From Porpolomopsis calyptriformis (taxonomy: Eukaryota; Basidiomycota; Agaricomycetes; Agaricales; Hygrophoraceae): DNA of 64,000 nucleotides. The notes below the pieces were generated by a model, which worked only from the letters and a program-made list of their open reading frames with translations, had not been told where the DNA came from and made no database searches. A program made the position numbers and the translations under genes. The stretch lies in contig OX621177.1 of the NCBI GenBank assembly GCA_951640195.1, positions 20,191-84,190 on the forward strand, written 5' to 3'. Shown here in pieces: positions 4,201 to 59,635 of the stretch. How positions within the stretch are numbered: the first letter of the stretch is position 1; each line of letters begins with the position of its first letter.

Positions 4201-7200
4201 TAATATTTAATAATAATAAATAAAAATTAAAATTCTCGAATTCTTGAATAAAAGTTTTTATAAAATAAATTATTTTAATTTTTTCGATTTCAAGTATTTA
4301 TAGTTTTTAATTTTCTAATCTCAATAGCCTAATCAGGAAACCCGATTACGGCTAGTGGAGTCAAGAATTTTAAATAAAAATAAATTTGAACTAAACCAGT
4401 TAATATAAAAATTGATCCATTATTATTAATTTAATGAAAATAGGAGAAGAATAATTAAAGTTTCTAGAATTCTAGAAAATTTTAATTAATAAAGCTTATA
4501 ACTTAATTATTAAAGGTTCTATAAGGATTATAAAATATATAATATAAATATGATATATAATTTAGATGCTAACATTTTAATATTTTCTAATTTAAATTTA
4601 TTAAGTGAATTAATTAATATTATACAAGAAATTAAAATTTATTTAATTTTAGGTTTTGATATATTAGTTTTAGGAGCTATAATTTTATTTAGTGGTGGAA
4701 AAATAGGTAAAGAAATTTTAGATATAACAGCTAAAGTAGTAGGTATTGCTGCTGGATCAACAATAATTTATGATAAATTAACTGGTAGTAGTTCTTCTAC
4801 TGATGAAGAAGAGGATAAAAATAAAAATAAAGATAATAAAGATGATAAAACAAATAATAATAAAGATGATAAAAATGATGGTAAATAATAAAAATTCTTG
4901 GTTTGGATTTAAGCGAAATAATAAATTATCTAATTTAAGTCACTCTTTTTTATTTACATCTATTTTTTCTAATTTGGACTTAAATGTTTCAGATACTTCT
5001 TCAACATTAGTTGGTTATTCTTATGGAGTATTTCTTATAAGTTTAATTGGTTTATTTTGTTTTATAAATGTTGTTGGATATTTATTTGTATATATTTTTA
5101 TTCAATTTAAAAATTATGATACTAAATATCCAATTTTAAATAAATTTATTTCTTATTATAAAAATACTACTTTATTTTTTGCTATAATTCAAATTTTACT
5201 TTGTTTAATTTGTTTTATTATAATAATAATTAGTTCTTTATATCTTGTTATAAAATTAGGTTAATAGTTAATTACTTTTAATTCTTTTTTTAACTCGAAT
5301 AGGCCATAGGCCTAATAGGCCTAATAGCGAGATTAATTTTTAAAATTTAACCCCAATTGAATTTTTATTTATTATTATTTTAATTTTTGTATTTCACATA
5401 AATTAAATTAAATAAATTGAATATATGAGATTACCAACATAAATGATATCCTCCTTTAGCTAGCATTCAATCACATTCTGGTGGAAGTGTAGATTTAGCA
5501 ATATTCAGTTTACATCTTGCTGGGGTGTCTTCCTTATTAGGTGCAATTAATTTTATTACAACTGTACTTAATATGAGAACTAATGGTATGAGTTTACATA
5601 AATTACCTTTATTTGTTTGGGCTATATTTGTTACCGCAATTTTATTATTGCTTGCTTTACCTGTTTTAGCTGGTGAATTTGTGCCAGCTCTAAATCTGGC
5701 TGTATGCTGGGAACTCTTCTATAATCAAATTATATTTATGGTAGACAATCAGCAGGTAACCTATATGGACTTCATGCCTTTAGGTAACCTCAACGACTGT
5801 GCGCCAGAACAATATATTACTAAATTATCTGTGTTTCCTCTAGGATTTTATCTGGCTGGTCTAGTAGAAGGAGATGGTACTATTGTAGTACCTAAAACTG
5901 AAAGATCAGCCAAAGGTAGATTAAATTATCCTAGTATTCAAATAGTATTTCAACTTAAAGATTTTCCGCTATGTCAAGCTATTCAAAAACAACTAAGGTA
6001 TGGTTCAATTAGTAAGAAGAAACAAAGTGCGGCCTACATTTTTACTATTAATAGTAATGAAGGTCTAATTAATTTCGCTAAACTTATTAATGGTAAACTC
6101 AGAGGTCCTAAATATTTTCAATATTGTCTACTAGTAAAATATTTAAATAATAGAAATCTTGATTTGAATCTAATTTTAAATAAATTAGATCAAAGCTCAC
6201 TATCTACAAATAGTTGGTTAGCTGGTTTTATAGAAGCAGTTGGGTCTTTTCAAGTACGAACAAGTTTAAATTCTTCTAATCGGGGATCCCGAATAGTCAA
6301 ACGATTACAATTAAGTTTCGAACTTAGTCAAATGCGAGTTACAAATTATGGATATTCTATGCATGAACTTATGCTAAGTATTGCTCAATTTCTTAATGTA
6401 AATGTGAATGAAATTCGAAGTGATAGAAAACATCCTCAATATCGAATTCGAACTAGTACTATTAAAACAAATCTAATTCTATGTAATTACTTAGATCAAT
6501 TTAATTTACAAGGTACAAAATATCTTGATTATCAAGATTGGAAATCTATTTTACATTATTTTGAAGAAGGTACACACAACGAAAATATTTCTAAAATTGT
6601 TGAAACTAAGAGTGGTATGAATCAACGACGAATTGAATATAATTGGAATCATTTACAGATTGGTAACTAATATTGTAAGATACAGTCTCAACTTGTATGT
6701 GAATACAAGAGCGTCTCCCTTATTTAATAACATTTATTAAATTTGAGTATATTAAAATTATACATAGATTTCGAGTCTGGAGGCCAAGATATAGTAGGCA
6801 ATAACTATGCTTCTTACAGATAGAAATTTTAATACTAGTTTTTATGATCCAGCGGGAGGTGGTGATCCTATACTTTATCAACATCTTTTCTGGTTTTTTG
6901 GTCACCCTGAAGTCAAAAATATAGGCTTCTTAACGTTGCTGTATGCTGGAACAACTTCGATAACTAGTTTTAAATACTCAATCTTAAATGACATAGTGAA
7001 AATTTTAAAACAATGAAGTATATCAGCAGGTAACGCTTTTTCTCCTTTTTTAAAAAGTGAAACCTCAGAGACTTTGCGCAACGAAACTGTAGTAAAAACG
7101 GAAAATGTAAAGTTTATTTCTGTACATGTACCTAAACATTTTAAGCCAGTCAATGATGATCAATTTGGACATTATTTAGCTGGTTTAATTGATGGTGATG

Positions 7201-58894: not shown

Positions 58895-59635
58895 ATGACT
58901 TTAAAAGAACTTTTAACTAAAATTAGAAATGTAATACCTTTTATTGGACTTGGAATAGCATTAGATTCTCATAATATGGCAAGTGATGCAAGAAAAGCGA
59001 GATTAGAACAAACTAAAGAAAAAACAGAAAAATTAATTGAGGCTATAAGTTCTAAAAATGATCTATTGATTTCTAATCAAGAATTTAAAAATAAAATAGC
59101 AGGTTTAACCGCGGATATTTCTGATTCAGTAGATTCAATAAATCATAATAATGAAATAGTTAATAATATTGTTAAAGAGATATTAAATAATCCTGATATA
59201 AATCAACTTGAATTTATATTAAGAGCATTAAATTCAAGTGAAAAAAATATAGAAAGAGTTAATACTACTTTACATAAAATATACGATTTAATTTTAGATG
59301 ATTTAAATAATAAAATTTTATCTAAAGATAGCATAAATCAATTAATTTTAAAATATAAAGAATTTTTAGCTACATTAGAAGTAGAACAAATAGCAGCTGT
59401 AGTTAATATTTTAGGTTTTGTTATTGTTCTTTCCTCTTTAGTTTCTATTGCAATGGTTTTATTTGCTGAATTTTTAATTAAAAATTTTAATTTAGAAGAA
59501 AAATATTCTAAATTAGCTCGTTTTATTCAAATTAGAAGAAAATTTCAATCTTATTATCTTAATTTCAATCTTATCTGTATCTTATTGGTTTCCTTCTTAT
59601 TATTATGATTTAATATTAATATTTTACTAAACTAA
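58895..59635 (+). CDS. orf246: coiled-coil protein with C-terminal membrane hairpin
   Basis: 246 aa reading TGA at 59,607 as Trp. N-terminal VIPFIGLGIALDSHNMASDA, coiled-coil-like region (about 30-155), helix 1 (ILGFVIVLSSLVSIAMVLFA, about 171-190), loop NFNLEEKYSKLARFIQIRRK then FQSYYL, helix 2 to the end. Member of the orf245/orf215/orf304 family. Lies inside the atp6 3'-end element behind a cox3-type leader, and is intact while the accompanying endonuclease is broken. Confidence 0.8.

Follow-up and report, generated by a model that had tools for sequence, protein, structure and literature searches.

The window analyzed here is a stretch of 64,000 nucleotides from Porpolomopsis calyptriformis, covering bases 20,191 to 84,190 of an 84,190-base contig (C17, OX621177.1) in a 33.5-Mb genome of 17 contigs. 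This contig is probably the fungal mitochondrial DNA (mtDNA). In the window, cox1, cob, cox3, nad2-nad6, nad4L, atp6, atp9, and rps3 were recognized by eye, and rnl and the tRNAs were assigned by Rfam and ARAGORN; cox2, nad1, and atp8 were located in the remaining 20 kb. The mtDNA carries an unnamed membrane-protein family inside mobile DNA, mostly behind copied host-gene starts. A first-pass annotation, made from the letters of the sequence, had pointed to six loci, two of them split into pairs of open reading frames (ORFs). All six ORFs, as well as the partners orfA1 and orfA2, lie where it had placed them and are open under genetic code 4. Two further membrane ORFs, orf388 and orf409, had been overlooked.

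Four long ORFs, all on the plus strand, form one family by sequence profile: orf245 (35891..36628), orf215 (43838..44485, with an alternative in-frame ATG at 43808), orf304 (47534..48448), and orf246 (58895..59635). A profile of the C-terminal hairpin, built solely from ten proteins of other genomes and searched against the mtDNA in six-frame translation (756 segments), returned orf304 (E 8.1e-33), orf245 (5.1e-28), orf246 (1.7e-25), and orf215 (2.8e-20), followed by orfB2 (5.9e-4); the next real segment came at 0.026, and 20 shuffled sets gave 0.11 at best. The conserved part is a predicted two-helix membrane hairpin with a basic loop at the C terminus. Ahead of it come a predicted hydrophobic stretch rich in Gly and, in most copies, a coiled coil that is long and variable. 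Of the long ORFs, orf245 has the FFQGLTLTTFGLGVYNT motif, a coil, and the hairpin, and orf304 has an N-terminal transmembrane (TM) segment, a Gly region, a coil, and the hairpin. By hydropathy, the hairpin proteins have two TM segments at the C terminus, with the exception of P0001, a relative that terminates upstream of them. The loop holds 6 to 9 Lys or Arg and 1 to 4 Asp or Glu residues in 13 of the 14 proteins scored; in the fourteenth, orf215, it was mislocated by the script. The motif that had been written out for this region matches strictly in orf245, orf304, and orf246 and not in the other three. The coil is predicted from helical periodicity in the window ORFs (p 0.003-0.02) and from long helices in a low-confidence structure model. 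Of the 10 proteins tested for periodicity, 8 reached p ≤ 0.02, and P0008 (0.18) and P0009 (0.08) failed.

A hairpin common to all six loci had been proposed; it stands strongly for the four long ORFs and weakly for orfB1 and orfB2. The split pairs are orfA1 (4550..4888, plus strand; 112 residues, with a TM segment, a Gly/Ala region, and a charged tail) with orfB1 (4875..5264, plus strand; 129 residues), and orfA2 (18555..18944, plus strand; 129 residues) with orfB2 (18922..19359, plus strand; 145 residues). Each orfB encodes a two-TM hairpin in the +1 frame relative to its orfA, overlapping it by 14 nucleotides in the first pair and by 23 in the second, a geometry that would suit coupled translation. 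The two orfB proteins match each other (E 6.9e-15), and as a pair they match the family by hhalign (probability 91, E 1.1e-6). Direct profile search did not detect orfB1, which is linked through its match to orfB2, and orfB2 was missing from the results of a second profile, in which the four ORFs of the window had been included. From these results, the hairpin is common to the family, weakly so for the orfB proteins. The orfA proteins match each other only (E 1.8e-7, best shuffle 4.7e-4; low-complexity tails may contribute), and orfA1 has no Pfam match. That orfA is the split-off N terminus of the long proteins was not borne out, as the profile comparison was empty; nor did the orfA pair match the orf388 and orf409 families.

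Beyond this genome, 11 relatives of the family were found among 5.8 billion proteins searched. They come in two forms, with an N-terminal TM segment (the orf304 type, with relatives P0001 and P0002) and without one (the orf245 type). One protein, P0010, retains the Gly motif and the hairpin and lacks the coil. Eight outside proteins, drawn from this family and from the second superfamily described below, terminate early. Four of these, P0001 in the coil-hairpin family and P0012, P0014, and P0015 in the orf388 family, stop at the residue immediately preceding a Trp in the window protein, which is what would be expected of a mitochondrial gene with TGA as Trp that is read under the standard code; P0017, P0020, P0022, and P0023 end elsewhere. 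These ends before Trp, together with an atp6 start in P0019 (see below), suggest that the relatives too reside in mitochondrial genomes. Pattern-based scans of viral contigs and of 84,980 prokaryote genomes found no relatives. When orf304, orf245, orf388, and orfB2 were searched for nuclear copies, the sole match was one 111-base piece of orf388 within a patchwork of mtDNA pieces. That patchwork (C12:786262-786575) consists of adjoining short pieces, 87 to 98% identical to the mtDNA, from a cox1 exon, orf388, the repeat behind orf409, and others.

The ORFs missed at first, orf388 (39613..40779) and orf409 (54840..56069), both on the plus strand, define a second membrane superfamily. Each has several TM segments, with a core rich in Gly and Ala and a pair of TM segments at the C terminus. 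Used together as queries, they retrieved 13 proteins, 11 nearest orf388 and 2 nearest orf409, and the two sets match each other by hhalign (probability 93.8, E 1.8e-7). Their membership in the coil-hairpin family was considered and rejected (E 0.016, 0.15, and 0.0033, probability <10 each). Around orf409 lie 82-base direct repeats, 94% identical (54686-54767 and 56122-56203), the downstream one preceding no gene. As aligned, the repeat before orf409 (54674..54783, plus strand) and its copy behind it (56112-56217) score 205, and in the leader-pair test described below 180; this upstream repeat is not a gene leader.

That the proteins belong to no described family holds in part. No cut-off was reached in Pfam (for orf388 included) or NCBIfam, and matches to PHROGs and the Protein Data Bank (PDB) were weak and mostly of coil type, while the Heterobasidion uORFs discussed below are comparable by description. 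A tape-measure PHROG (E 7.6e-4) and TrlF (E 4.3e-4, against a cut-off of 350 bits) matched coil regions of orf304. The nearest matches of orf409 were tRNA_Me_trans (19.7 bits against a cut-off of 20.6, E 7e-4), which did not recur in its relative P0021, and trmU (E 2.6e-4, 20 bits against a cut-off of 237). A structure model of orf304 has a mean predicted local distance difference test (pLDDT) score of 64, confident only in the hairpin (78-86), and Foldseek matched it to nothing in PDB or BFVD at E ≤ 0.001; the orf388 model (mean 44) was left unused. LAGLIDADG and GIY-YIG domains were found in none of the membrane ORFs, and neighboring genes do match them. One could also imagine that the ORFs encode respiratory-chain proteins not yet described, either accessory subunits or assembly factors, whose genes some fungi happen to have in mtDNA. 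The membrane hairpin, the conservative substitutions considered below, and a third-position GC content like that of core genes (0.03-0.14 in ten ORFs versus 0.06-0.13 in six core genes scored) would suit such a role. Against it stand six divergent hairpin copies in one genome, their position beside mobile DNA, the loss of the coil in P0010, and the want of a convincing match to a solved chain (best E 0.036, a keratin coil), and we consider this explanation quite improbable.

The mobile setting differs from locus to locus. Five of the six loci adjoin an endonuclease gene, in keeping with the original view of ORFs riding on homing elements; orf245 does not fit it and adjoins a relic of a family B DNA polymerase (DNA_pol_B_2, 37438-37860, minus strand, E 8.4e-29). 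No intact polymerase was found, and the polymerase relic stands beside orf245 only; a piece upstream of it, taken as polymerase, gave no Pfam match. The orfA1/orfB1 pair follows an intact LAGLIDADG gene and is flanked by cox1 exons. At the other four loci, the adjoining endonuclease gene is interrupted in every case, just as the first-pass annotation had it. The orfA2/orfB2 pair sits in an rnl insertion with a LAGLIDADG gene broken into two frames (17835..18407, plus strand; first piece LAGLIDADG_1, E 7.8e-13), and orf304 sits between nad5 exons, in an insertion with another (46416..47076, plus strand; LAGLIDADG_2 at E 1.1e-6 for one of three pieces). These two insertions are probably related, because they have in common a 78-base stretch (17570-17647 and 47067-47144) that is 81% identical. 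Behind cox3, orf215 follows a broken GIY-YIG gene (42417..43484, plus strand; one piece at E 5.8e-10, with three palindromes inside), and behind atp6, orf246 follows a LAGLIDADG gene (57595..58593, plus strand) cut by a single in-frame TAA. This TAA falls between the two LAGLIDADG halves, which may act as two proteins, so that the gene need not be dead. On the minus strand, 27800-34301 is a plasmid-like block of ORFs in which frames of 467 and 134 residues are open and many pieces are broken, with a 245-base direct repeat at 29284 and 34207 (82%).

The cox3 and atp6 elements each close with a second copy of the 3′ end of the host gene, at 44756..44865 downstream of orf215 (plus strand; alignment score 127, 300-shuffle maximum 55) and at 59962..60165 downstream of orf246 (plus strand; score 280, 300-shuffle maximum 58; repeat D10). 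Their plan, a complete gene, an endonuclease gene downstream, and a displaced 3′ end, is that of the mORF elements of Glomus and Allomyces, in which an endonuclease accompanies a substituted C terminus of atp6, atp9, cox2, or nad3 (PMC3630166). Here, unlike there, a leader-bearing membrane ORF stands between the endonuclease and the displaced end; the available part of that paper mentions no such cargo. Linear mitochondrial plasmids, including mF of Physarum, are described as carrying ORFs with TM features beside a DNA polymerase gene (PMC10048350). The position of orf245 beside a polymerase relic is alike, but the polymerase is not intact here.

Much of the interpretation depends on the sequences upstream of these ORFs. 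Loose BLAST settings were uninformative for leaders in AT-rich DNA, and a composition-aware local score was used instead. One comparison took 231 pairs of upstream stretches, a set from which the cox1 and atp8 leaders were absent; its null of 3000 pairs had 99.9% at 62 and a maximum of 73. Another covered the whole 84 kb on both strands, with four whole-mtDNA shuffles, and with 2000 shuffles for selected blocks. Scores of 60 to 86 were graded weak, because GC-rich repeats between host leaders score equally. That copied host leaders precede the ORFs has strong support at four of the six loci (orf245, orfA2, orf215, and orf246); for orfA1 and orf304 it is weak. All of the copies are on the plus strand. 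Before orfA2 lies a copy of the atp9 leader (18513..18554; score 94.8, reached by 0 of 3000 null pairs) whose ATG is ATA in the atp9 leader itself; in the whole-mtDNA comparison the top matches of orfA2 were palindromes. The cox1-type leader of orf245 (35759..35868) consists of two collinear blocks, the first (35759-35815) scoring 93.3 against cox1 leader positions 958-1014 (maxima of the four shuffles, 50-55) and the second (35833-35868), which ends about 23 nucleotides before the ATG, scoring 74.0 against 1190-1228 (2000-shuffle maximum 55.6). A nad4L-type leader precedes orf215 (43774..43824; score 127.1). The cox3 leader (41423..41530, plus strand) has counterparts before orf246 (58781..58894; score 169-173; repeat D13) and before orf388 of the second superfamily (39482..39612; score 147.4). 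In the 84 kb searched, CTATAAGGA was found four times: before nad4L, orf215, orfA1, and the broken rnl endonuclease.

Leader borrowing seems to recur in other genomes. Residues 3-49 of P0019, an orf388 homologue (longest contig 160,868 bases), align to residues 4-50 of atp6 (E 2.2e-10 against 18 core proteins and pieces), and P0009, an orf245 homologue, begins MLDAIF, which is the atp9 leader of the window read with ATA as ATG, a likeness seen by eye and given without a statistic. If so, the leader differs within one family between genomes, being cox3 for orf388 here and atp6 for P0019. P0019, at its start, was the only outside protein with a clear piece of a host gene, in a comparison of outside proteins made without nad4L and atp9. 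With both included, none of the ten window ORFs showed a convincing host piece when compared with the 18 core proteins and pieces; the best match, of the orf245 TM region to nad5, had E 0.0023.

A host leader ahead of a membrane protein brings to mind the ORFs of cytoplasmic male sterility in plants, in which the leader of a host gene drives a mitochondrial membrane protein; these plant ORFs are mostly chimeras of host genes. By analogy, the ORFs here could be selfish conflict genes that disturb the inner membrane, bias transmission, and are countered by nuclear restorers. The layout is partly that of the plant system, with its atp or cox leader and membrane protein. However, the family is stable as a protein, its coding parts hold no convincing host-gene piece and are not chimeric, no phenotype is known, and members occur in several genomes. 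In Heterobasidion parviporum, according to the accessible part of the description, a mitochondrial nc-ORF is a candidate in mitonuclear growth interactions (PMC10512249), which speaks for conflict. On balance, we find this explanation improbable.

Whether the ORFs are kept by selection or have simply not yet decayed is the central question. In the latter case, they would be neutral hitchhikers, derived from plasmids or other elements, that arrived recently and are without function in this host. A 26-base palindrome, GAGTATCTGGNGTACNCCAGATACTC, is spread through the mtDNA (58 exact copies in the whole genome, all 58 in this contig; 54 in the window with mismatches allowed). It is absent from 11,842 bases of core coding sequence and rare in intact ORFs, with 1 copy in 7,101 bases of intact endonuclease genes, and so marks relaxed selection. 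The eight loci have 0 copies in 6,959 bases (the six loci, 0 in 4,562), whereas relics have 20 in 11,022 bases, those supported by Pfam 7 in 5,577, and the four broken endonucleases 4 in 3,301. For classes drawn by the analyst, with the non-Pfam relics taken by eye, Fisher tests against all relics give p 7e-5 for the eight loci and 0.0017 for the six; the Pfam-supported relics give 0.0033 and 0.018, and the four broken endonucleases alone 0.010 and 0.030. Two minus-strand ORFs have 2 copies in 1,959 bases. Within the same cox3, nad5, and rnl elements, then, the membrane ORFs are palindrome-free and the endonucleases are broken, with palindromes inserted in the cox3 and nad5 ones. Substitution points the same way. 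Between orf304 and P0002 (193 of 283 residues identical), 45 of 90 substitutions are conservative, compared to 31 ± 5% in a neutral simulation. The claim that the ORFs stay intact while neighboring mobile genes decay is thus upheld by palindrome counts and substitutions, and palindrome-free ORFs with mild changes among orf304 relatives make selection on the membrane ORFs likely. Repeated leader borrowing, too, weighs against hitchhiking.

Several points weigh against this reading, beginning with the hand-drawn classes just mentioned; an insertion preference of the palindrome could also contribute to the contrast. The simulation for orf304 and P0002 expected 6.9 stops, and 0 of 400 runs were stop-free, a test biased by a protein database that contains open frames. 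Versus P0001, the pattern is weak (13 of 24 substitutions conservative versus 34 ± 10%; 16% of runs stop-free). In the orf388 family, P0020 and P0023 have lost the frame near their ends, which speaks against universal selection, and such decayed relatives would suit hitchhikers. The leader before orfA1 (4490..4549, plus strand), weakly nad4L-like, scores 64.1, a value reached by about 7e-4 of null pairs and lying within the shuffle maxima of 56-66. That of orf304 scores 78.7 against the 600 bases upstream of cox2 (2000-shuffle maximum 64.3) and was graded weak because the match is partly a GC repeat about 370 to 570 bases from the cox2 start. In the cox1, rnl, and nad5 insertions, which hold orfA1/orfB1, orfA2/orfB2, and orf304, no intron core was recognized by Rfam. 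Three intact Heterobasidion uORFs have ratios of nonsynonymous to synonymous substitution rates (dN/dS) of 1.15, 0.90, and 0.35, two of them near neutral, in the part of the report available (PMC10234125), and that such ORFs might derive from plasmids is a published view (PMC4201751, likewise in part). An ORF may, moreover, have arrived after its endonuclease. Even so, with the endonucleases of the same elements already broken, we regard neutral hitchhiking as doubtful.

The family, the leader copies, and the intact frames beside decayed ones are established. What best accounts for them, we think with slightly better than even confidence, is that these are mobile accessory passenger genes of mtDNA, encoding inner-membrane proteins, borrowing host leaders, and kept by selection. 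Expression, membrane insertion, topology, and selection are what we infer in this scheme. The ORFs lie within other mobile DNA: long insertions in cox1, rnl, and nad5, a region of plasmid relics, and two elements by which cox3 and atp6 had their 3′ ends replaced. Translation in fungal mitochondria uses gene-specific activators that bind leaders, known in yeast for some of these genes. Borrowing would then recruit the nuclear activators of cox1, cox3, nad4L, or atp9 messages, and the leaders of these genes would place synthesis at the inner membrane. Once there, the ORFs could be retained by selection as the endonuclease or polymerase of the element decays. By the positive-inside rule, the basic loop is predicted to lie in the matrix, and therefore the coil in the intermembrane space. 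We imagine, as pure inference, that the proteins would most likely act as oligomers, forming a scaffold or tether at the inner membrane to the benefit of the mtDNA or element that carries them; a coil on a membrane hairpin fits such an activity. The tethering, import, or conflict functions that the first-pass annotation had offered as possibilities are likewise conjecture.

A bolder version can be envisioned. Class I fusogens combine an N-terminal Gly-rich hydrophobic segment, a coiled coil, and a C-terminal TM segment, and most members of the family have this layout; but their C terminus is a hairpin, P0010 is without a coil, and the orf304 model has no significant fold match. By this analogy, the elements might carry their own inner-membrane tether or fusogen, with the coil in the intermembrane space joining the inner membranes of different mitochondria, an idea that we rate as very improbable. 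A role in membrane contact or fusion would favor elements that need mitochondrial mixing, and mixing has been reported in the Physarum strains with the mF plasmid (PMC10048350, as far as the available text goes). If the idea were true, mixing of mtDNAs would let homing elements and plasmids reach empty targets, as in those strains, and the endonuclease might decay because the membrane gene would now select for itself.

The closest published parallel to the passenger genes that we favor is in Heterobasidion, as far as the accessible parts of those reports go. Its non-core mtDNA uORFs nearly all have transmembrane regions, with uORF6, uORF8, and uORF9 intact in all five species, and its partial host genes PA_nad2, PA_cox3, and PA_atp8 are core-gene 5′ ends that have been duplicated ahead of ORFs in intergenic regions (PMC10234125). 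The two systems are alike in ORFs that are non-core, have TM regions, and are not plasmid polymerases, in duplicated host 5′ sequence, and in a family of self-complementary palindromes. They differ in that the Heterobasidion uORFs are intergenic, whereas here three loci lie between exons and two in gene-end-replacing elements, and in the sequence of the palindrome; we liken them by description only. We considered P0003 as a counterpart of Heterobasidion nc-ORF5 (both 311 residues) and rejected it, as it is without a Met at residue 131, needed for the reported reading of 181 residues. Membrane uORFs, a possible plasmid origin, and partial host genes ahead of them are, then, already published for Heterobasidion (PMC10234125, PMC4201751). 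In the open-access literature, searched by title and abstract (most subscription papers lie outside this scope), we recognized no paper describing the present family. Within that literature, what is new is the definition of the two families, their location in elements that interrupt exons or replace gene ends, the change of leader in one family between genomes, and the palindrome test.

Membrane ORFs of fungal mtDNA are abundant, unexplained, and usually dismissed as non-conserved. Two families that stand behind host leaders and outlast the mobile DNA around them turn such ORFs into testable genes. This raises the questions of when they are expressed, whether they borrow nuclear translational activators, and whether they bias mitochondrial inheritance or growth. 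Intact amid decaying mobile DNA, the ORFs of the family are, to judge from their sequences, probably useful for something.

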